Below the pieces are notes generated by a model. The model ran no database searches. It was given only the letters and a program-made list of their open reading frames with translations, and was not told where the DNA came from. From positions 1-26,289 of the IMG/VR virus record IMGVR_UViG_3300006803_000085: DNA of 26,289 nt, one strand, 5' to 3'. Positions within the stretch are counted from its first letter, which is position 1, and every line of letters begins with the position of its first letter. Position numbers and translations under genes: made by a program. Shown here one piece after another: positions 6,002 to 25,003 of the stretch. Source of the DNA: a virus.

Positions 6002-6503
6002 ATACAAGGAGATGCCCGAGGAAGTGGCACGCATCCTTTCGCAAACAGAGCGCATCCAGGCGCACTTCAACGATCAGTACGAACTGAGCGAAGAAGATGC
6101 CAAGTACCTGGACAAGGTGAACACCGTGTTCGCCATCATCCACGGGGAATCGGATAACGACATGGCCAGGGAGAAGATCCGCGTGGTCTTCAAGATGGAC
6201 GGCAACAAGCAGATCAGCGACCTGGTGAATGCTGCCCGCCTGATCTATGGCGACTTCTTCGAGATGAACCGCGACGTGATGCGCATCATCCAGGAGAAAC
6301 GCCACCAGCGCACCTACGAGGCCGCCATGCGCAATGCCGACTACCCTGCTGCCGAACGCGCGCTCAAAAGTATCGACCAGCTGTATCAGCTGTATCAGCG
6401 GGGCACCGATACAAGCCGCGCCAATACCGCCCTGCCACAAACCCGCCGCACCAGCAATGTCACCGCCCTCAAGAAATTGACCGATGGCGACGAAGAAGAA
6501 TAA
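5982..6503 (+). CDS. terS: Terminase small subunit (probable)
   Basis: The 173-residue, mostly helical, highly charged protein lies directly before the large terminase and overlaps it by 20 bases (and the preceding gene likewise). Small terminases are short helical DNA-binding ring proteins, which this fits. About residues 40-115 form a helical bundle (NDMAREKIRVVFKMD, LVNAARLIYGDFFEMNRDVM). The C-terminal 30 residues are Thr/Arg-rich and probably flexible, ending in DGDEEE, as in many TerS tails that contact TerL. It would recognise phage DNA for packaging. The name rests on position, size and composition; no catalytic motif is expected. Confidence 0.65.
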   Translation: MRHKEVKYKEMPEEVARILSQTERIQAHFNDQYELSEEDAKYLDKVNTVFAIIHGESDNDMAREKIRVVFKMDGNKQISDLVNAARLIYGDFFEMNRDVMRIIQEKRHQRTYEAAMRNADYPAAERALKSIDQLYQLYQRGTDTSRANTALPQTRRTSNVTALKKLTDGDEEE

Positions 6504-7968
6504 GGCACTGCAGGAGGTAGAACTGTACTACAACCCGAAGATCCTGGAATTCCTGGACCTGGTAAAAAAGGTGAAGGTGCTGAAAGGTGGCCGTGGCTGT
6601 GGCAAGACGCGCAGCATCGCAGAAGACATGCTGGACCGGGCCTACCAATTGCCGCGGTCCCGCCACTTCGTGTTGTCGCTTACCTTCGAGGCCATTGACA
6701 CCAACATCATGCCCGACGTGCACGAGGTGTTCCAACTGCACGGCCTACAGGATGGCATCCACTACGTAATCGACCAGAAGCCGCCCGACCACTTTCAGGC
6801 ACCCTTCAAAGCGCTGGAAGACTACAGCCACTGCGTGTGCCTCATCAATGGCACTGTATTCCAGAAGATCAGCATGGGCCGCATCCCCAAGAAGAACAGG
6901 GGGCGAAGCTACGATGGTGGCATCATCGACGAAGCCCTGAACTTGGACGGCTGGCAGGTGCGCAACATCATCCTGCCTACCCTGCGCGGCCTGGATCGTT
7001 GGAAGGGGAACCCATACTGGAAGATGCTATCCATCTACAGCAGCCACCCGCGCACCGCAGAAGGCAGCTGGTTCATGGTATACGAAAAGCTGGCGAATAC
7101 CAGCCCCAAGCTATACGGATGGGTGGAAGCTACCGCCCTGGACAACCTGGCAGTGCTGGGTGAAAGCTACATCGAAGATCAGCGCGCAAGCCTGAGCTAC
7201 ACCGATTTCATGATTGAGATTATGAACGAAGGCAACGTGAAAGACTTGCCCCTCCTGTTCTACTACCAGCACGACGAGAAGCGCCACCACTACGTGGCCG
7301 AAAACCTGGGTGACCTGGATGCGGATCTACCCCTGGAACTATCCTTCGACTTTGGTGGGCGCTACACCTGCTGCACCGTCAGCCAGGAACAAGGCCAGGT
7401 GGAACGCTACCTGCACGAGTTCGACACCAACGACATCACCGAAAACGAGCGCGTGACCGGCAAGGTGAAGAAGCTGCCCGACGTCGTGAAAGACTTCTGC
7501 CGCGTGTTCGCCAAGCACCCGACCCGCCAGGTACGCGTATGGGGCGACCGCACCGGGCTGAACCCACGAGAAATGGATGACGCCACCCTCTACGATGTGA
7601 TTCGGGAACAACTGTCGAAGGCAGGATGGGAAGCCCAGGTGATGGTGAGCTACAGCGATAGCGCCCTGCACAAAAGCCGCTACAGCTTCATGAACACGAT
7701 CTTCGAGGAAAGCATCGACGACTACCCGCGGATTCAGATTAATGCGTTCACCTGCCCCAACCTGATCGTGAGCCTGGACACCACCCGCGTGACCGAAGAT
7801 TTCAAAAAGGATAAGAAGGATGAACGCAACATTAACTACAACCAGAGCTACGCACCGCACCTAACCGACACCCTCGACTACAAGATGTTCAACAAGTACT
7901 TCTACCTACTCGATGACGACTACTTTGGCGGGTTCAGTGGAATCGAAAGTGGCATTGAAACCCTTTAG
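6484..7968 (+). CDS. terL: Terminase large subunit
   Basis: The 494-residue packaging motor pumps DNA into the prohead and cuts it. The ATPase domain shows Walker A GGRGCGKT (residues 35-42) and Walker B GIIDE (Asp149-Glu150). The RNase H-like nuclease domain begins near residue 280 with LSFDFGG (Asp289), continues with WGDRTG (Asp355), and ends with HLTDTLDY (Asp462/Asp465), the usual spacing of acidic metal ligands. Length is normal for the family. It overlaps TerS by 20 bases, so translation is coupled. After its stop come 168 bases without a gene, with only a weak short hairpin (AGGCT/AGCCT), then a new promoter-like element. This is one of the safest calls in the window. Confidence 0.95.
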   Translation: MATKKNKALQEVELYYNPKILEFLDLVKKVKVLKGGRGCGKTRSIAEDMLDRAYQLPRSRHFVLSLTFEAIDTNIMPDVHEVFQLHGLQDGIHYVIDQKPPDHFQAPFKALEDYSHCVCLINGTVFQKISMGRIPKKNRGRSYDGGIIDEALNLDGWQVRNIILPTLRGLDRWKGNPYWKMLSIYSSHPRTAEGSWFMVYEKLANTSPKLYGWVEATALDNLAVLGESYIEDQRASLSYTDFMIEIMNEGNVKDLPLLFYYQHDEKRHHYVAENLGDLDADLPLELSFDFGGRYTCCTVSQEQGQVERYLHEFDTNDITENERVTGKVKKLPDVVKDFCRVFAKHPTRQVRVWGDRTGLNPREMDDATLYDVIREQLSKAGWEAQVMVSYSDSALHKSRYSFMNTIFEESIDDYPRIQINAFTCPNLIVSLDTTRVTEDFKKDKKDERNINYNQSYAPHLTDTLDYKMFNKYFYLLDDDYFGGFSGIESGIETL

Positions 7969-14950: not shown

Positions 14951-14983
14951 GAAGCCCTGGTGCACCGCCGGGGCTTCCCTTTT
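14951..14983 (+). terminator. Terminator between tail operon and integrase
   Basis: GAAGCCC (14951-14957) pairs with GGGCTTC (14971-14977), extended inward by a GG/CC pair, and is followed by CCTTTT. It ends the plus-strand structural transcript just where the minus-strand integrase gene ends. On the minus strand there is no T-run, so it mainly serves the plus strand. Confidence 0.65.
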
Positions 14984-16035
14984 CATATCCCCGGAAAGTC
15001 GCTACGCAAATTCCCCACATCACGCACCCCCATCTGGCGCAGGTACTTATCTGTTTCATCCAGCGAGTGGTGGCGCAGCTGGATCTGCAACTGCTTCACC
15101 CCGATGCCCGCTTTGATGGCCATCACCGCGCCGGTATGCTTCCAGGAGTAGAGGCAATAGTCTGATCCGAATTTGAGCCGCCGCAAAATATCCCGATGCC
15201 GCTGCGACATGGTATTCCGCCCGATCGGCTTTCTGGGATCGTGGCAGCCGGGAAAGATGTATTCGTTGGGGCCCAGATCGTAGACGAACGACAGCGCTGG
15301 CATGAAGGAATCGGGAATGGCCACGTACTGGGTTTTCTTGTTCTTCGAGTGGGCGCCACGGATAATGATCTCCCTGTCCTGCAACATGATGTCGCCCGCC
15401 TTGAGGGGTGGCAGTTCCCGCGATGGCCGGATGAAACAGTAGAAAACAAACTGGATGTAGAGCCAGAGCTGCGGATCGCAGGCGCTAATCTCGTCGCGCA
15501 GGCGGGCTACCTGGTGGGCCTGGAAGAACCGGGCAGGCGTCTTGATCGTCTTCACCGGCTCGATGTTGATGAACAGGTTGGGCCGATCAATGGCGTCGCA
15601 GATTTTCGACAGCCATTGCCGGTACACATTGTAGGTGGTAGTGTGGCGGGTAGCGCCAACGTGGGCGAAAAACTCCTCCATCGCTACCCTATCCAGCTGC
15701 CGGCCATTGAGCCAGGTGAAAAGTTGGTTGGCAATACCCACCACGTTGGTGATGGTGCTGGCCCGGCAATGTGCCGCCATGCCCTGGATGTGGTCTTCCA
15801 CCTGGCACTGGTCCACCGTCTTCACCGGCGTCAGCTCGTTGGCCAGCGACTGCGCAAACTGCTCCGCCAGCACGAGCCGGCCTTTGTACGAGGTTTCCGA
15901 ATTGATGTTCCCGTATTTCCGCTGCCGCTTGCCGGCGTCGTACCATTCCACGAACCACTTCTTACCGAGGTCTTCCGGAGCGTACAATTTGAAGGTACGC
16001 CCCTGAAAGGCAAAAAGTTTTTTTTCTCCTAACAT
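14983..16035 (-). CDS. int: Tyrosine-type phage integrase
   Basis: The 350-residue site-specific recombinase integrates and excises the phage genome. The N-terminal part (about 1-160) holds the arm-binding and core-binding regions. The catalytic domain shows FIRPSREL (Arg203 or Arg206), YSWKHTG (Lys299-His300), LRHHSLDETDKYL with Arg321, His322/323 and the nucleophile Tyr331. The KHTG box, with no HxxR arginine at the usual place, is a feature I associate with Bacteroidota integrases. I chose ATG 16035, since the longer frame opens with TTG at 16080. It faces the tail operon tail-to-tail. Its upstream region holds repeated TTGTCTACGG sites and its start lies in a hairpin, so its expression is probably controlled. 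Confidence 0.9.
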   Translation of the reverse strand: MLGEKKLFAFQGRTFKLYAPEDLGKKWFVEWYDAGKRQRKYGNINSETSYKGRLVLAEQFAQSLANELTPVKTVDQCQVEDHIQGMAAHCRASTITNVVGIANQLFTWLNGRQLDRVAMEEFFAHVGATRHTTTYNVYRQWLSKICDAIDRPNLFINIEPVKTIKTPARFFQAHQVARLRDEISACDPQLWLYIQFVFYCFIRPSRELPPLKAGDIMLQDREIIIRGAHSKNKKTQYVAIPDSFMPALSFVYDLGPNEYIFPGCHDPRKPIGRNTMSQRHRDILRRLKFGSDYCLYSWKHTGAVMAIKAGIGVKQLQIQLRHHSLDETDKYLRQMGVRDVGNLRSDFPGI

Positions 16036-16053
16036 GCTCAAAGTTGTTAGGAG
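16026..16053. repeat. Inverted repeat around integrase start codon
   Basis: CTCCTAAC (16026-16033) and GTTAGGAG (16046-16053) form a perfect 8-bp inverted repeat with a 12-base spacer. In the minus-strand mRNA, the integrase AUG lies at the edge of the loop and stem. It could hide the start (translational control) or be a protein binding site. Confidence 0.6.
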
Positions 16054-16070
16054 GTCCGGTGAATCTGAAC

Positions 16071-16246
16071 CCGTAGACAAGCCGAAACCCGGTTATTGTC
16101 TATGGACACCCGCAACCCCTTGGAATTGCTGGGATTTTTTGAAATTGTGCCCAGAACAGGATTCTACCCCATTCACCGTACCCCCTTGGTTTTCAATCTA
16201 TTGCTATTGGCCGTAGACAACGTTTTGTCTACGGCATTGTCTACGC
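16071..16246. repeat. TTGTCTACGG repeat sites upstream of integrase
   Basis: Five copies of TTGTCTACGG or near copies are present: CCGTAGACAA at 16071-16080, TTGTCTATGG at 16096-16105, CCGTAGACAA at 16211-16220, TTGTCTACGG at 16225-16234 and TTGTCTACGC at 16237-16246. The second pair is a perfect 10-bp dyad with a 4-base centre; the first pair is a dyad with a 15-base centre. Likely uses are integrase arm sites, an excisionase site or operators for the integrase promoter. A weak minus-strand promoter (TTG complement at 16218-16220, TAGATTG complement at 16194-16200) overlaps the second cluster. The rest of this 284-base gap shows nothing else I can name. Confidence 0.65.
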
Positions 16247-16256
16247 TATCCGACAC

Positions 16257-16291
16257 AAAAAAGCCCACCGATATGCGCATATCGGTGGGCT
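16257..16291 (-). terminator. Perfect-palindrome terminator of repressor unit
   Basis: Bases 16262-16291 form a perfect 30-bp palindrome (half AGCCCACCGATATGC), followed on the minus strand by six T (16262 down to 16257). It terminates minus-strand transcripts coming from the repressor and the small ORF before they reach the integrase upstream region. On the plus strand only a short T-free tail follows. Confidence 0.85.
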
Positions 16292-16319
16292 AAAAGATGT
16301 GTGTGTGTAGTAGGCGGAT

Positions 16320-16442
16320 CTACTTGTCTGTTCGCTCTAGCTCCTCTCCATACCGTTTTTGTAATGCGACCAGTAATTTTTCCCGACAGGCTTTTTCGTT
16401 TCGAATAAGCTCGATCAGTATCAAAATCAATAGGGGATTCAT
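16320..16442 (-). CDS. Possible 40-residue membrane-active small protein
   Basis: An ATG-started frame encodes 40 residues: a hydrophobic N-terminus (MNPLLILILIELI) followed by a charged amphipathic helix ending in EELERTDK. It ends 29 bases before the terminator palindrome, and begins 57 bases after the repressor stop, on the same strand, so it would be the second gene of the repressor transcript. A longer minus-strand frame at 16246-16497 overlaps it but reads through the terminator palindrome, so it is a poorer candidate. The shape is like small membrane peptides, for example an exclusion or toxin-like peptide. Both the coding call and any role are uncertain; too short to be sure. Confidence 0.4.
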   Translation of the reverse strand: MNPLLILILIELIRNEKACREKLLVALQKRYGEELERTDK

Positions 16443-16498
16443 ACAATTCAGGTTTAGAACGAGATAAAAAAAGAATATGTAATAATAAATTCAACATC

Positions 16499-16894
16499 TC
16501 ATATATTGTATTTTTTTCTAATGCTTTGTACTGCCGCTGGCGAAATCTTTTCCAGCTCGTCCATCAATCCTGGAATATCCTTCTCCTGCTCGATCTTCGA
16601 CCGCATGTTTTCCAGCTCACGTTGGTACATGCCGATGATGTGTTTCATATCCACGTCGATGAGTTGCTGGTTGGGCTGCTCTACCCCTTCTTTGGCGAGG
16701 TCTCGCATGACAAGATCGTTGGCCGTCACATTGAAAAACTCCATGAGTTTGATCAATACACTATAGCTTGGATAACTCTTGCCATTTTCATAAGCACTGA
16801 CCTGAGACGCAACCACTCCAAGTTCCTGCCCAAGATCATTTAAGGTTAGTTTTTTGCTAGTTCTTAAATAGCGAATATTGTCCCCTACTGCCAT
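16499..16894 (-). CDS. XRE-family repressor (CI-like)
   Basis: The 131-residue protein has an N-terminal helix-turn-helix of the XRE/Cro-CI type in residues 6-60: IRYLRTSKKLTLNDLGQELG, then VASQVSAYENGKSYPS, the recognition part. A longer helical C-terminal half (about 80-125, ENMRSKIEQEKDIPG) probably gives dimerisation; no peptidase motif of LexA type is visible, so induction would not be by self-cleavage. It is transcribed away from the small gene at 17004, the classic lysogeny switch layout. A dyad at 16942-16972 around the lytic promoter is the probable operator. It likely represses the lytic genes and perhaps its own transcription. Confidence 0.85.
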   Translation of the reverse strand: MAVGDNIRYLRTSKKLTLNDLGQELGVVASQVSAYENGKSYPSYSVLIKLMEFFNVTANDLVMRDLAKEGVEQPNQQLIDVDMKHIIGMYQRELENMRSKIEQEKDIPGLMDELEKISPAAVQSIRKKYNI

Positions 16895-16928
16895 TTCCGT
16901 TTTATTTATAAAAAAATCACTTGTTAAC

Positions 16929-19058: not shown

Positions 19059-22000
19059 ATGATGATAGCAAACGCCAACGAGATCAAAGATAGCCTCAAC
19101 ATGGAGGAGGCTTTGGTATGCCTGGGCCACCAGCTCAACCGCCAGCGTCGCACCACTTGCCCCGTCCACGGTGGCACCGATGCCAACTTCTCGGCAAAGA
19201 ACAACTACGGCACCTGCTTCTCGCATTGTGCTGGAAAAACTTGGTCCGTCACCGACCTGGTGATGGAAGTCAAAAACCTTACTTACCCCGAAGCCCTGGA
19301 ATGGATTGCCTCACAATCTAAAATTAATGTACAGTACCAGGGCGGCGACCGCAAAGAGCTGATCGAAGCAGCTAAGCAGGAGCGCGACCGCAAGGAAGAA
19401 CTCTACCTGGCCAACGAAGCAGCCCTGGAACGCTACGAGAATGGTGCGGTGATCGAGTTCAAAGAACGATACCACTTTGACGGGAGAGATTGGAGCGGCG
19501 AAACCATCAAGGCGTTCAGGCTTGTGCAGTCGCCCAACGACAACGTGCTGGCCAAACAAACCACCATCAGCAAGGCACTGCTGCAGGAGCTGGGCCTGAT
19601 TAAGCACAGCGAAACCAAAGACATCTGGTACGACTTCCTGCGCGACCGAATTCTCTTTCCCATCTTCACCCACCAGGGTAGGGTGGCAGGCTTCACCGGG
19701 CGCAAACTGAGTACTGCACACCCCGACAGCGCCAAGTACAAGAACAGCCAGGAGAGCCTGGTATTTGAAAAAAGAAACCTGCTGTATGGCATCTGGCAAA
19801 ACCGGCGCACCATCCAGCAGGTTGGGGCCCTGCTTTTTGAAGGCATGGCCGACGTGGTTACCGCTTACGACTACGATGTTCGCCGCGCTGTAGCCACCGG
19901 TGGCACCGCGGTAACTGCTGGCCAATTGAAGCTGCTTAAGCGCTACACCAACACCGTGACAGTGATGATGGATGGCGACGACGCCGGCTATAAGGCTGCC
20001 CGCAACGCGGTAGAAGAAGCCATTGCCATCGGGCTGCGGGTGCAGGTCTGCTTCTTCAACGAGCCTACAGCCGAAGACCAGGAAGCAGGCATGAAGCGCT
20101 ACGACCCCGACAACTTCCTGCGCCGCTACGGCAAAGCTGCATTCGAGGCAGTGGTGGAGGAGCAGAGCCAGGACGGGTTGATGTGGCGCGCGATGGAGGA
20201 ATGGAACGACAAAGACATCTTTCGCCAACACGCTGCCGTGAGCCTGGCCGGGCGCATGATCAGCATGCTCGACGAGGAAATGCTGCGCGACCATTATCAG
20301 CGCGAGCTGCTCACCACCAACTACTTCGGCAAGGTGCACAAGAATGCCCTGGAAGACGCAGTGAAGGCCGAGCTGGAAAAGCGCATGCGCGACAACAACA
20401 AGCCAGACCTGAGTGCCCAGCAGCAAAGCGACATTAAGAAGTATGGCCTCTACATTAAGAACCACCAGTACTGGGTGTCGGGCGACGAGGATATGGAAGG
20501 TTACCCGATCAGCAATTTCTCGGTGGAGCCGGTGATGCTGGTGGTAGGTTCCGCCAAGTCGGAGCGGCGGGTGGAGATTAAGAACATCTATGGCGCCAAG
20601 TTCACTGCCAATATTGATAGCGACAGCTTTGTGGAAATGACTGCTTTCCGCAAGGAAGTGGAACGCCGGGGCAACTACCTGTTCCTGGAAACCTTCCGGC
20701 CTGAGCACTTCACCAAAGTGAAGCGGAAGCTGTACGATGAGATGAAGGTATGCTACCCCATAACAACCCTGGGCCGCCATGCGAAGAAAGATTTCTATGC
20801 CTTTGTGAATGGTATTGTCGGGCCTGGTGGCCAATTCATTGAAGCCAGCGAAAACGGAATTGTGAATTTCGACGACGCCAAGTTCTTCCTGCCCGCATTC
20901 GCCAACGACGACGATACCATGTTGAGCGACGACGAAGACAACAGCTACGAATCAGAGCAGAACTTTATCTACATCGATACCATCAAAGCGCCATCGTTCA
21001 CCGAGTGGTCGGCCATGATGGCCACGATACACGGCGAGAACGGCATGATGGGAGTGGCCTGGTACTTGTCGGCCTTGTTCCGCGACATCATCTACGACCG
21101 CAACGACTGTTTCCCACACCTCAACTGTTTTGGCCCTCCGGGTTGCGGCAAGTCGTTTCTGGCTTGGTCCTTATCCTACATGTTTGGCCATGCCCGCCGA
21201 CCTTATAACCTGAACGATGGCACCAACGTAGGTTTCTTCCGCCGCATGGCCCAGGTGCGCAACGGGGTAGCCTGGTTCGACGAGTACAGCAACGACATCG
21301 ACTTCAAGCGGGCGCAAGGTCTTAAGAACGCTTACGACGGTGCAGGCCGGGAAAAGGGGGTAGCCACTACCGACAACCGCACGGTGACAACCAAGGTGAA
21401 CAGCGGCCTGGTGATCACCGGGCAGGAGCTGATGGTGCAAGACATTGCCATGTATACCCGCTGCATCACCTGCAGTTTCCCCGACGTGAAGCGCACCCAG
21501 GAACAGCTGGACGCAGGCGATGCGCTGATGGCCTTGCAAAAGACCGGCTGCTTGTCGCAAATAACGGCGAAGATGCAGTCGTACCGCGAGATCATCAAGA
21601 CCGATTTCGACGAAGTATACTACGACGTAAGGGGCCAGCTGAAAGGAATGGTACAGGGCAAAGAAGTACTGGACCGCCTGGTAAACAACTACGCCGTGGC
21701 CTTATCTACCGCGTTCATCATCGACCGCTGCGAGCCGCTGGGCTTCAAGTTTGCCGACCTGCTGGAATTCTCGCTACAAAACCTACTGTGGCAAAGCAAT
21801 AGCATCGGGCAAGAAGACGACCTGGCCGTTTGGTGGGATACCCTACAGTACTACATTGCCAAGAACGACCTTCTGCACAACGACGACATCCTGGTGCAGG
21901 AGATGCGCACCCTGAAAGTCAGAGATTCAAAAGGCAAAGAAACCGACACGATAGAGATCAGCTTTGAGGAAGACCGCAAGGTGCTGTTCCTCACCATGAC

Positions 22001-22220
22001 CAAGAGCTTCCGATTCTACAAAGAGCAGATCCGGAAGGAGGGGGGCAAGAGTGGCCTCAACAAGGAAGCCATCCGCTACTACCTGGCAGGATCACCTGCC
22101 TTTATCGGGGATGTAAGAGCCAAGAAGTTTGCCGGAACGGCCAAGCGCTGCATGGCTTTCGACATGACCCGCATGAACTTTGATCTGCCGATCAGTACCC
22201 ACGTAGAATACGAGCATTAA
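19059..22220 (+). CDS. DNA primase-helicase fusion
   Basis: The 1053-residue protein probably synthesises primers and unwinds phage DNA at the origin. A CHC2-type zinc finger lies at Cys34, His37, Cys53, Cys57, followed by a TDLVMEVKNLTYPEALEWIA segment typical of DnaG-like primases. The TOPRIM core has LFEGMAD (Glu261) and DGDDAG (Asp305, Asp307). In the C-terminal half a P-loop GPPGCGKS (residues 692-699), then VAWFDEYS and a VITGQEL segment, suggests an AAA-type ATPase. The zinc spacing CFSHC has one extra residue compared with classic CHC2. ATG 19059 is preferred over the in-frame ATG at 19011, which lies in the leader hairpin, and AAGAAAAGA precedes it. The origin candidate follows. Confidence 0.85.
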   Translation: MMIANANEIKDSLNMEEALVCLGHQLNRQRRTTCPVHGGTDANFSAKNNYGTCFSHCAGKTWSVTDLVMEVKNLTYPEALEWIASQSKINVQYQGGDRKELIEAAKQERDRKEELYLANEAALERYENGAVIEFKERYHFDGRDWSGETIKAFRLVQSPNDNVLAKQTTISKALLQELGLIKHSETKDIWYDFLRDRILFPIFTHQGRVAGFTGRKLSTAHPDSAKYKNSQESLVFEKRNLLYGIWQNRRTIQQVGALLFEGMADVVTAYDYDVRRAVATGGTAVTAGQLKLLKRYTNTVTVMMDGDDAGYKAARNAVEEAIAIGLRVQVCFFNEPTAEDQEAGMKRYDPDNFLRRYGKAAFEAVVEEQSQDGLMWRAMEEWNDKDIFRQHAAVSLAGRMISMLDEEMLRDHYQRELLTTNYFGKVHKNALEDAVKAELEKRMRDNNKPDLSAQQQSDIKKYGLYIKNHQYWVSGDEDMEGYPISNFSVEPVMLVVGSAKSERRVEIKNIYGAKFTANIDSDSFVEMTAFRKEVERRGNYLFLETFRPEHFTKVKRKLYDEMKVCYPITTLGRHAKKDFYAFVNGIVGPGGQFIEASENGIVNFDDAKFFLPAFANDDDTMLSDDEDNSYESEQNFIYIDTIKAPSFTEWSAMMATIHGENGMMGVAWYLSALFRDIIYDRNDCFPHLNCFGPPGCGKSFLAWSLSYMFGHARRPYNLNDGTNVGFFRRMAQVRNGVAWFDEYSNDIDFKRAQGLKNAYDGAGREKGVATTDNRTVTTKVNSGLVITGQELMVQDIAMYTRCITCSFPDVKRTQEQLDAGDALMALQKTGCLSQITAKMQSYREIIKTDFDEVYYDVRGQLKGMVQGKEVLDRLVNNYAVALSTAFIIDRCEPLGFKFADLLEFSLQNLLWQSNSIGQEDDLAVWWDTLQYYIAKNDLLHNDDILVQEMRTLKVRDSKGKETDTIEISFEEDRKVLFLTMTKSFRFYKEQIRKEGGKSGLNKEAIRYYLAGSPAFIGDVRAKKFAGTAKRCMAFDMTRMNFDLPISTHVEYEH

Positions 22221-22228
22221 GGCTTTGG

Positions 22229-22271
22229 GAAAGTGTTAAAATTGTTTTAAACAACAATTGTTAAAACTTTC
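22229..22271. repeat. AT-rich inverted repeat after primase gene
   Basis: The arm starting GAAAGTGTTAA (22229-22246) and the arm ending TTAAAACTTTC (22253-22271) are inverted copies with one mismatch and one extra base, around the spacer TTAAAC. A following T-run after CTGTACCTGG is too far for a clear terminator. It may be a weak bidirectional terminator or a part of the origin region. Confidence 0.55.
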
Positions 22272-22317
22272 TGTACCTGGTTTTTCAGCTGTTTTTTGCA
22301 ACCGATAGAAGGAAGCC

Positions 22318-22612
22318 CAAAAAGCCCACAACCGCCCATAACCGAATGCAACCAACAAAATTTAATTCTTTAAAAAAGTTAATCAATTGAAAACCAAGCA
22401 AATAACAAAAGTAACCTATTGCCGATCGGTTGTGTTTGGGGGTGTTTTCGGTTGTGGGCTGGTTGTGTTCTGCATAACCAAACACAACCGGGTTGCATTT
22501 GAACACAACCGTGCAACCGAAAAAACGCCAAAGTTGTGTTTTCAACTAATTGTAAATCAATAAATTAACTCCGGTTATGGGCGGTTGTGGGCTTTTTGCC
22601 AAAAACACAACC
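22318..22612. other. Candidate replication origin with iterons
   Basis: A perfect 27-bp inverted repeat (22318-22344 and 22572-22598; core CCCACAACCGCCCATAACC on the left) encloses this gene-free block. GGTTGTG or its complement occurs eight times: complement at 22327, 22483, 22504 and 22606; direct at 22428, 22450, 22461 and 22583. The central five starts are 22, 11, 22 and 21 bases apart, about one or two helical turns. Nested pairs add symmetry, for example CGGTTGTGTTTGG (22427-22439) with its exact complement at 22478-22490. An AT-rich tract (about 22357-22412) sits beside them and could be the melting site. Position after the primase-helicase fits an origin; a repressor-controlled early regulatory region is the alternative. 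Confidence 0.6.
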
Positions 22613-22639
22613 CTGCCTCAGCCACGAAAAAAACGCAAA

Positions 22640-22864
22640 ATGAAAATGTTTGAAGTTCAAACTCAAAGCGGGCGCAAATTCCCGGTGATCCGCCGCAAGC
22701 AAGGCGCCATGGAAACCGACGAATGCCCATACTGTGGCGGCACCCACATACACGGCACGGCACCAGGCCACCGCATTGCTCACTGCACCAACAAAGCATT
22801 GGAGCTGAACGTGGATGGCGAGCGGCTGACGCCGTTTGATGGGTACATCATTGTTCATTATTAA
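22640..22864 (+). CDS. Small zinc-ribbon-like protein
   Basis: The 74-residue protein contains CPYCGGTHIHG followed by GHRIAHC (Cys-x2-Cys, several His, then a Cys), probably one zinc site in residues about 30-50. Its role is unknown. It is the first gene after the origin-like block, 28 bases after the last GGTTGTG box, so it may be controlled from there. I chose ATG 22640, with an A-rich leader; an earlier in-frame ATG at 22577 lies inside the right arm of the 27-bp inverted repeat. Small zinc proteins of this kind are common in phage early regions. Confidence 0.65.
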   Translation: MKMFEVQTQSGRKFPVIRRKQGAMETDECPYCGGTHIHGTAPGHRIAHCTNKALELNVDGERLTPFDGYIIVHY

Positions 22865-24007: not shown

Positions 24008-24398
24008 GCGCAGCAACTACCCGCCAGACTGGCCACACATTGTGGCCAGGATAATGGAGCGGGCCCAGTACATGTGCGAAAGCTGCGGCGTGCCCCGCTA
24101 CGCAGTTGGCTACCGGAGCGGGGAAAATAAAACGATGAACACCCTCATAGTGGGGGAGAACTACCGCGAAGCGAACGAGCTGCGCCACCGGATACAAAGG
24201 GCCATGGGCAGGAAGATAATCGTGATCCGCCTCACCACCGCCCACCTGAACCACGACGAATGGAACCCCGCCGTGACCGATGCCGACCTGGCCTGCTTCT
24301 GCGAGAAGTGCCACCTCGACCACGACCGGAAAGACAACCAGCTGCGCAAACAGTATGGGAAGCAGTACAAGCGACACCAATTATCAATTTTCAAGTGA
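23997..24398 (+). CDS. HNH endonuclease
   Basis: The 133-residue protein has the HNH fold signature: a Cys27-x2-Cys30 pair (CESCG), the catalytic-type HLNHD at residues 83-87, and a second zinc pair CEKC (102-105) followed by HLDHD. The order CxxC, HxNH-like, CxxC-H-x2-H fits metal-dependent HNH nucleases. Between the first pair and the motif lies an insert of about 50 residues (residues 33-80). Phage HNH proteins act in DNA packaging, host DNA breakdown or homing; it is far from the terminase here, so I cannot say which. It overlaps the preceding gene by 11 bases, in the early operon. Confidence 0.8.
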   Translation: MPIKRSNYPPDWPHIVARIMERAQYMCESCGVPRYAVGYRSGENKTMNTLIVGENYREANELRHRIQRAMGRKIIVIRLTTAHLNHDEWNPAVTDADLACFCEKCHLDHDRKDNQLRKQYGKQYKRHQLSIFK

Positions 24399-24415
24399 AA
24401 TTCAAAACAATTCTA

Positions 24416-25003
24416 ATGAACGAAGCAAAGAAAAGCCCACTCGAAACCTTCAAGACCGTACTCTTGCTGGTAGTAGCAGTTTGGCTGGTGGTAACCACCT
24501 GTGAAAAGAAGACACCCGAAGGCCCCCCCGACACCGACACCGCAACCGTGGACCTGTCGGCACTGACCGACGTCCGGTTCTTACGCAAGCTGCCTGGCGA
24601 GAACTACCTGGGCGCATCGGTGAACCAGCCCGAATTGGTAGCGCTCCGCAAAGCTGGCATCCGCACCATCATCCGCCTGAATGGTGACACCCAGTCCGAT
24701 CGGGGCTACCTGAGCATACAACAGGAGGCCGAGCTGTGCCACGAGCTGGGCATCCGATTCTATTACCTCAACATCGAAGGCAACATCGAGCAGTCTGGCG
24801 AAGTAGTGAGCAACCTCATGAGCACCGGCAACACCTTCGTGCACTGCCGCAACGGGCAGCACCGGGCACCGGCCATGGCGGCGGCGTACCTGCGGCGGCT
24901 GGATCTGCCTCGCGGCGAAATACTGCATCTGGTAGGATGGAACAAGCTGGCGCTGAATCCCGGCAAGTACGAGAAGTACACCGTGGTGCTGCCAGTACAA
25001 TAG
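24416..25003 (+). CDS. Membrane-anchored tyrosine-phosphatase-like protein
   Basis: The 195-residue protein begins with a hydrophobic helix (residues 14-27) ending VVTTC29, a possible but non-standard lipobox (Thr at -1), then a Pro/Asp/Thr-rich linker. From about 55 it resembles a dual-specificity phosphatase: IRTIIRLNGDT, LGIRFYYLNIEG, then the signature HCX5R as His143-Cys144-Arg-Asn-Gly-Gln-His-Arg150. Cys144 would be the nucleophile and Arg150 the phosphate binder. The general-acid Asp usually in the second motif seems replaced by Glu122 or absent, so activity could be altered. The anchor suggests it acts in the periplasm or at the membrane. It ends the operon, 17 bases after the HNH gene. 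A phosphatase of the host surface or a defence role is possible but untested. Confidence 0.75.
   Translation: MNEAKKSPLETFKTVLLLVVAVWLVVTTCEKKTPEGPPDTDTATVDLSALTDVRFLRKLPGENYLGASVNQPELVALRKAGIRTIIRLNGDTQSDRGYLSIQQEAELCHELGIRFYYLNIEGNIEQSGEVVSNLMSTGNTFVHCRNGQHRAPAMAAAYLRRLDLPRGEILHLVGWNKLALNPGKYEKYTVVLPVQ

Follow-up and report, generated by a model that had tools for sequence, protein, structure and literature searches.

A box array next to a primase-helicase gene as a candidate replication origin in phages of Bacteroidota

Phage replication origins are rarely recognisable from sequence, and the question raised by this locus is whether a dense array of short boxes beside a primase-helicase gene is such an origin or a site of some other kind. 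The window (the whole stretch of DNA analysed, a linear virus record of 26,289 bases) carries terminase, portal and tail tape-measure genes, and its array occupies 22318-22612. From the array itself and its comparison with relatives, we consider it highly likely that this segment serves the phage as its origin of replication and that the primase-helicase encoded immediately upstream recognises it.

The array and the adjacent gene in the window

A first-pass annotation of the sequence had described a perfect 27-bp inverted repeat with 227 bases between its arms, enclosing helically spaced GGTTGTG boxes, eight boxes in both directions with central spacings of 22, 11, 22 and 21 bases, together with an AT-rich tract, all directly after the primase-helicase gene (Table 1). 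This description is correct. The repeat is exact, the start-to-start distances of the five central boxes are as given, and eight of the nine GGTTGTG copies in the whole window lie at 22327-22612; most of the eight are enclosed by the repeat, but one box lies outside its right arm. The AT-rich tract is present, and there is a second between the centre and the right arm; the left tract is a possible site of melting. In 2000 dinucleotide shuffles of 22221-22639, the mean number of boxes was 0.18 and the maximum 2, compared with the eight observed, and the longest inverted repeat in 100 shuffles was 13, compared with 27 observed. The annotation had missed four one-mismatch boxes, at 22337, 22473, 22532 and 22573, and thus each arm of the repeat is in fact made of two tandem boxes 10 bp apart, which read outward on both sides (<< on the left, >> on the right). 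The left arm begins 97 bp past the end of the primase-helicase gene (22220), which places iterons immediately 3' of the putative initiator gene.

Table 1. Positions of the array elements and of the primase-helicase gene in the window
Feature	Position	Strand of gene or direction of boxes	Details
Primase-helicase, 1069 aa	19011..22220	+	PHROG DNA primase families, E to 1.9e-65
Winged-helix codons (proposed box-binding domain), residues ~980-1051	21948..22163	+	AlphaFold2 elements E341-355, H357-370, H379-387, E392-401, E404-412
Left outer group = left arm of inverted repeat	22318-22344	-	Boxes CACAACC 22327-22333 and CATAACC 22337-22343
Left AT-rich spacer, 74 bp	22354-22427		24% GC
Central cluster	22428-22510	+ and -	Exact + at 22428, 22450, 22461; exact - at 22483, 22504; one-mismatch - at 22473
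Right AT-rich spacer, between centre and right arm	22519-22571		26% GC; one-mismatch box at 22532
Right outer group = right arm of inverted repeat	22572-22598	+	Boxes GGTTATG 22573-22579 and GGTTGTG 22583-22589
Extra GGTTGTG box outside right arm	22606-22612	-

The product of the upstream gene matches DNAG_N and Toprim in Pfam. AlphaFold2 modelling of residues 640-1069 with 24 relatives (pLDDT 85) predicts an AAA+ core followed by a winged helix at the C-terminus, and the predicted model most closely matches, by Foldseek comparison with the PDB, the SCCmec protein Cch (5dgk, E 5.5e-9); SaPIbov1 Rep (8tch, 3.1e-6), SaPI5 PriRep1 (7pds, 8.9e-5) and MCM proteins are also among the top matches. 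A sequence-profile search of the PDB gave no match; the structural link rests on the predicted model. The protein would combine a primase of the DnaG type (zinc finger and Toprim) with an MCM-like AAA+ motor that, in the model, carries the winged helix at its C-terminal end. We propose it as the initiator, with the winged helix as the domain that binds the boxes.

Several other features of the window were noted. An AT-rich near-palindrome at 22230-22271, just past the primase stop (GTTAAAATTGTTTTAAACAACAATTGTTAAAAC), could be a terminator or an origin element. Immediately after the array, 22640-22864 encodes a small protein with a zinc-ribbon-like motif (CPYCGGTH...HC), which we do not tie to the array because in L003 a relative with 41% identity is encoded 4 kb away from the array of that locus. 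At 24260-25003, in a region of small genes, there is an ORF with a dual-specificity phosphatase-like domain (PTP-SAK, E 8.5e-8). At 14983-16900, after the tape-measure gene, AT skew goes negative and GC content falls, which suggests a block of opposite-strand or foreign genes. At the array itself, the skew check called for by the annotation gave nothing: neither GC skew nor AT skew switches cleanly within this linear 26-kb piece of a virus record.

Layout and box words in relatives

The annotation had called for a search of relatives for the same block. A search of 395 Bacteroidia genomes with the whole protein recovered mostly host DnaG and was redone with the C-terminal half. We left out three loci that match short or N-terminal stretches only (L009, L021, L045) and two contigs that end just 3' of the primase (L017, L104). 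A box array is found 3' of the gene in nearly every primase-helicase relative with enough flanking DNA, including four in which it seemed absent until we searched further out or more loosely (L039, L023, L032 and Ingeline_1). The 37 arrays tabulated are carried by phages and prophages of Bacteroidota and by a Chlorobiota-labelled bin.

The architecture of the array is kept, while the box sequence is not. The arrays span ~160-357 bp and contain 8-20 boxes each. In nearly all of the 37, the outer groups consist of two to three tandem boxes with a period of 8-10 bp and are mutually inverted; most arrays have two AT-rich spacers, mostly 64-95% AT, and the centre contains mixed boxes, many of them spaced at close to 10 or 21 bp. 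The annotation had argued that such helical phasing implies cooperative binding on one face of the DNA, and the ~10/21-bp centre seen in the sequences of many arrays fits that idea. The layout is less clear in L004, where the word is palindromic, and in L102 and L116, which have irregular edges; the right edge of L054 is beyond the scanned stretch, and in L103 and L105 the outer groups are inverted but in the opposite sense for the word as written.

The box words differ substantially between lineages. In two viral contigs with primases 36-37% identical, the layout is kept right after the gene with the words GGTTGAC and GTCGAC, and across the diverged relatives (36-40% amino acid identity) the array is in the same place with GGTTGAC, GTCGAC or GGTTGTC, the last being the word of the Chlorobiota-labelled bin. 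The word is TGTAGGAC in Echinicola, GTTGAGA in Flavobacterium phages, TGTTGGAAC in Cellulophaga phage Ingeline and TGTAGGA or TGTTGGA in Porphyromonas gingivalis phages; gut phages have TGTAGGA, TGTTGGA, GGTTGGA, TGTTGTTA, TGTAGTT, GGTAGGA or TGTAGGTC, and prophages of other Bacteroidia genomes have TAAAGTAA, TGTTGTA, GTTGACA or TCGGGCA. The words are thus lineage-specific with respect to the initiator: they agree with the tree of the primases, along which position 3 switches. One genome (G253) carries three prophage-like loci, L099, L100 and L101, with primases 85-87% identical and almost identical TAAAGTAA boxes; at L101 the boxes are degenerate and the C-terminus is the most diverged. Records of P. 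gingivalis phages (L051, L054, L055, L010) list short hypothetical proteins encoded over the box arrays, and these are probably not genes.

The distance between array and gene ranges from ~40-80 bp in L003, L004, L007 and L008 to as much as ~6.9 kb in L023/L116, so adjacency is not strict. Because the distance varies to this extent and the genes between differ, linkage to one neighbour does not explain the association. When 16 array loci were compared by tblastn, the primase-helicase was the only compared protein common to all.

At box position 3, T and A have switched more than once on the primase tree. In the P. gingivalis/gut clade, a site where the second wing strand begins (residue ~1292-1295 of L015, corresponding to ~1044 in the window protein) tracks this letter: it is Asn or Gln in 15 of the 16 rows with TTG boxes and in none of the 20 rows with TAG boxes, where it is Ser, Ala, Ile, Val or Pro throughout; these rows are related, non-independent and drawn from one clade. 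The single exception is L031. This rule was picked on few rows, and it held in eight P. gingivalis phages fetched later, as it did in two loci with boxes recognised only afterwards (L032 and L023). With control labellings, the number of such columns is likewise 0-1, and a looser test is passed by two further columns of the primase, one of which lies in the same loop of the wing. To the clade of the window itself the rule does not carry over. The tracking of one box letter by a wing residue in the P. gingivalis/gut clade is suggestive only, and a reading of the adenine opposite T by Asn or Gln would be chemically sensible. A second candidate specificity column, at window residue ~608, was perfect on 14 representatives and failed on the full set of rows.

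Origin reading, proposed mechanism and alternatives

The comparison supports reading the array as an origin, as the annotation had proposed: the layout is kept, and the array is tied to one gene, that of an MCM-like initiator helicase-primase. The array, its kept layout, its exclusive tie to the primase-helicase, the lineage-specific words and the fold predicted for the C-terminal half were all computed here. The array is very probably the site at which this virus of Bacteroidota-type bacteria begins to copy its DNA.

By analogy with the SaPI and SCCmec initiators, we infer winged-helix binding, double loading, melting and a bidirectional start. The C-terminal winged helix would bind the 7-8-bp boxes, and the central, roughly helically spaced cluster would nucleate the complex; the tandem, mutually inverted outer groups, which together form the 27-bp repeat, would make two helicase rings face opposite ways. 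Melting of the AT-rich spacers would follow, the MCM-like motors would load themselves and unwind outward, and the fused DnaG-type primase would lay down primers.

One alternative is an operator, with the boxes binding a phage repressor or activator of the operon that starts near 22640 and the layout being regulatory. The array does lie upstream of a co-directional operon, and HTH or LuxR-type regulators are found near the primase in some clades. In ~14 gut and P. gingivalis arrays (L012, L018, L022, L024, L028-L030, L033-L036 and L040-L042), the right AT-rich spacer contains TAnnTTTG reading toward the downstream genes, which we take to be the promoter-like -7 box of Bacteroidota. These arrays may thus affect transcription, in addition to or in place of replication, and an origin may double there as a promoter region. 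Yet TAnnTTTG is not found on the downstream-reading strand of the spacers of the window array, and no regulator is common to the 16 array loci compared. In the P. gingivalis/gut clade, neither of two other conserved proteins, an annotated repressor and the protein encoded after the array, has a column that tracks the box letter. Moreover, 8-20 boxes with two mirrored outer groups exceed the usual operator. We therefore regard an operator as unlikely; a dual role, in origin function and autoregulation, is conceivable.

Short-repeat arrays near mobile-element genes can be parS-like, and a partition (centromere-like) site could in principle look like this one, as might a packaging site. We consider either very improbable, since no ParA/ParB partner is common to the 16 array loci compared, the terminase gene of the window (6484-7968) is far from the array, and such sites would leave both the association with the initiator and the drift of the boxes with it unexplained. 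The perfect 27-bp repeat with 227 bp between its arms also resembles the termini of a transposon or MITE, but its arms are tandem boxes with the same word as the centre, and the arms of related arrays are built from the word of the lineage concerned. The arms are therefore not mobile sequence, and the repeat corresponds to paired outer boxes rather than transposon ends. It is present in a single copy in the record, there is no ORF of transposase size between the arms, and the bases flanking them show no visible target-site duplication. The annotation was right to judge against a transposon, a reading to which we give almost no credence.

It is an evenly balanced proposition that a replicon class so far undescribed is common to tailed phages across Bacteroidota. 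In it, a fused DnaG-type primase and MCM-like self-loading initiator would act on a three-part, mirror-edged origin, the wing of the winged helix would recognise the letters of the boxes, which would change along with it, and matched pairs of initiator and origin specificity would occur naturally. In the open-access literature we found no description of such origins in Bacteroidota phages, and the P. gingivalis phage paper that we searched mentions neither an origin of replication nor an iteron. The architecture of the array would allow rule-based finding of origins in many Bacteroidota phages. Initiator-origin specificity can be tested directly in natural pairs, for example the P. gingivalis phages that carry TAG or TTG boxes.

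Comparison with known initiator-origin systems

The candidate origin shares features with several known systems and differs from each. Iteron plasmid origins of the RepE/TrfA type likewise combine repeated initiator boxes with an AT-rich region, but their initiators have no helicase motor of their own and bring in DnaA and DnaB from the host, whereas here the motor is within the proposed initiator. The alpha protein of phage P4 binds repeats (ori/crr) in two separate loci, in contrast to the one compact block of ~160-357 bp seen here, and the likeness carries no demonstrated sequence relation. Like the protein described here, alpha is a fused primase-helicase, and it drives replication from its own origin (PMC6092414, PMC7145576).

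Among the SCCmec proteins, Cch is the best PDB match of the window model. The C-terminal domain of Cch2 binds direct repeats just downstream of its own gene, a putative origin, in vitro (PMC7581432). That system has three iterons and a separate primase (CCPol-MP), compared with 8-20 boxes and a fused DnaG-type primase here.

There are also parallels with the rep-ori systems of SaPIs and PICIs (SaPIbov1 Rep, SaPI5 PriRep1, EcCICFT073). Their initiator is an MCM/D5-like helicase that loads itself and whose DNA-binding domain is C-terminal, and the model predicts a protein of this type here; in SaPI Rep this domain recognises an iteron origin directly downstream of its own gene (PMC7581432). Both systems have short iterons 3' of the initiator gene with an AT-rich melting candidate, and in both the iteron words differ between elements (PMC7581432, PMC6092414). 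Unlike helper-dependent satellites, the viruses here are tailed phages with their own structural genes (terminase, portal, tape-measure); their primase is of the DnaG/Toprim type rather than the AEP type of SaPIbov1 and SaPI5, and in relatives the array may lie up to ~6.9 kb from the gene. PICI origins have two iteron sets flanking one AT-rich region (PMC6092414), in contrast to three box groups and two spacers here. Because the satellite life style, the AEP primase and the two-set layout are all absent, we do not file the array as a SaPI/PICI rep-ori; by analogy, the candidate origin would work like one but is not a member. That ordinary tailed phages have a related layout, here in three parts, is relevant to how satellites and phages are connected.
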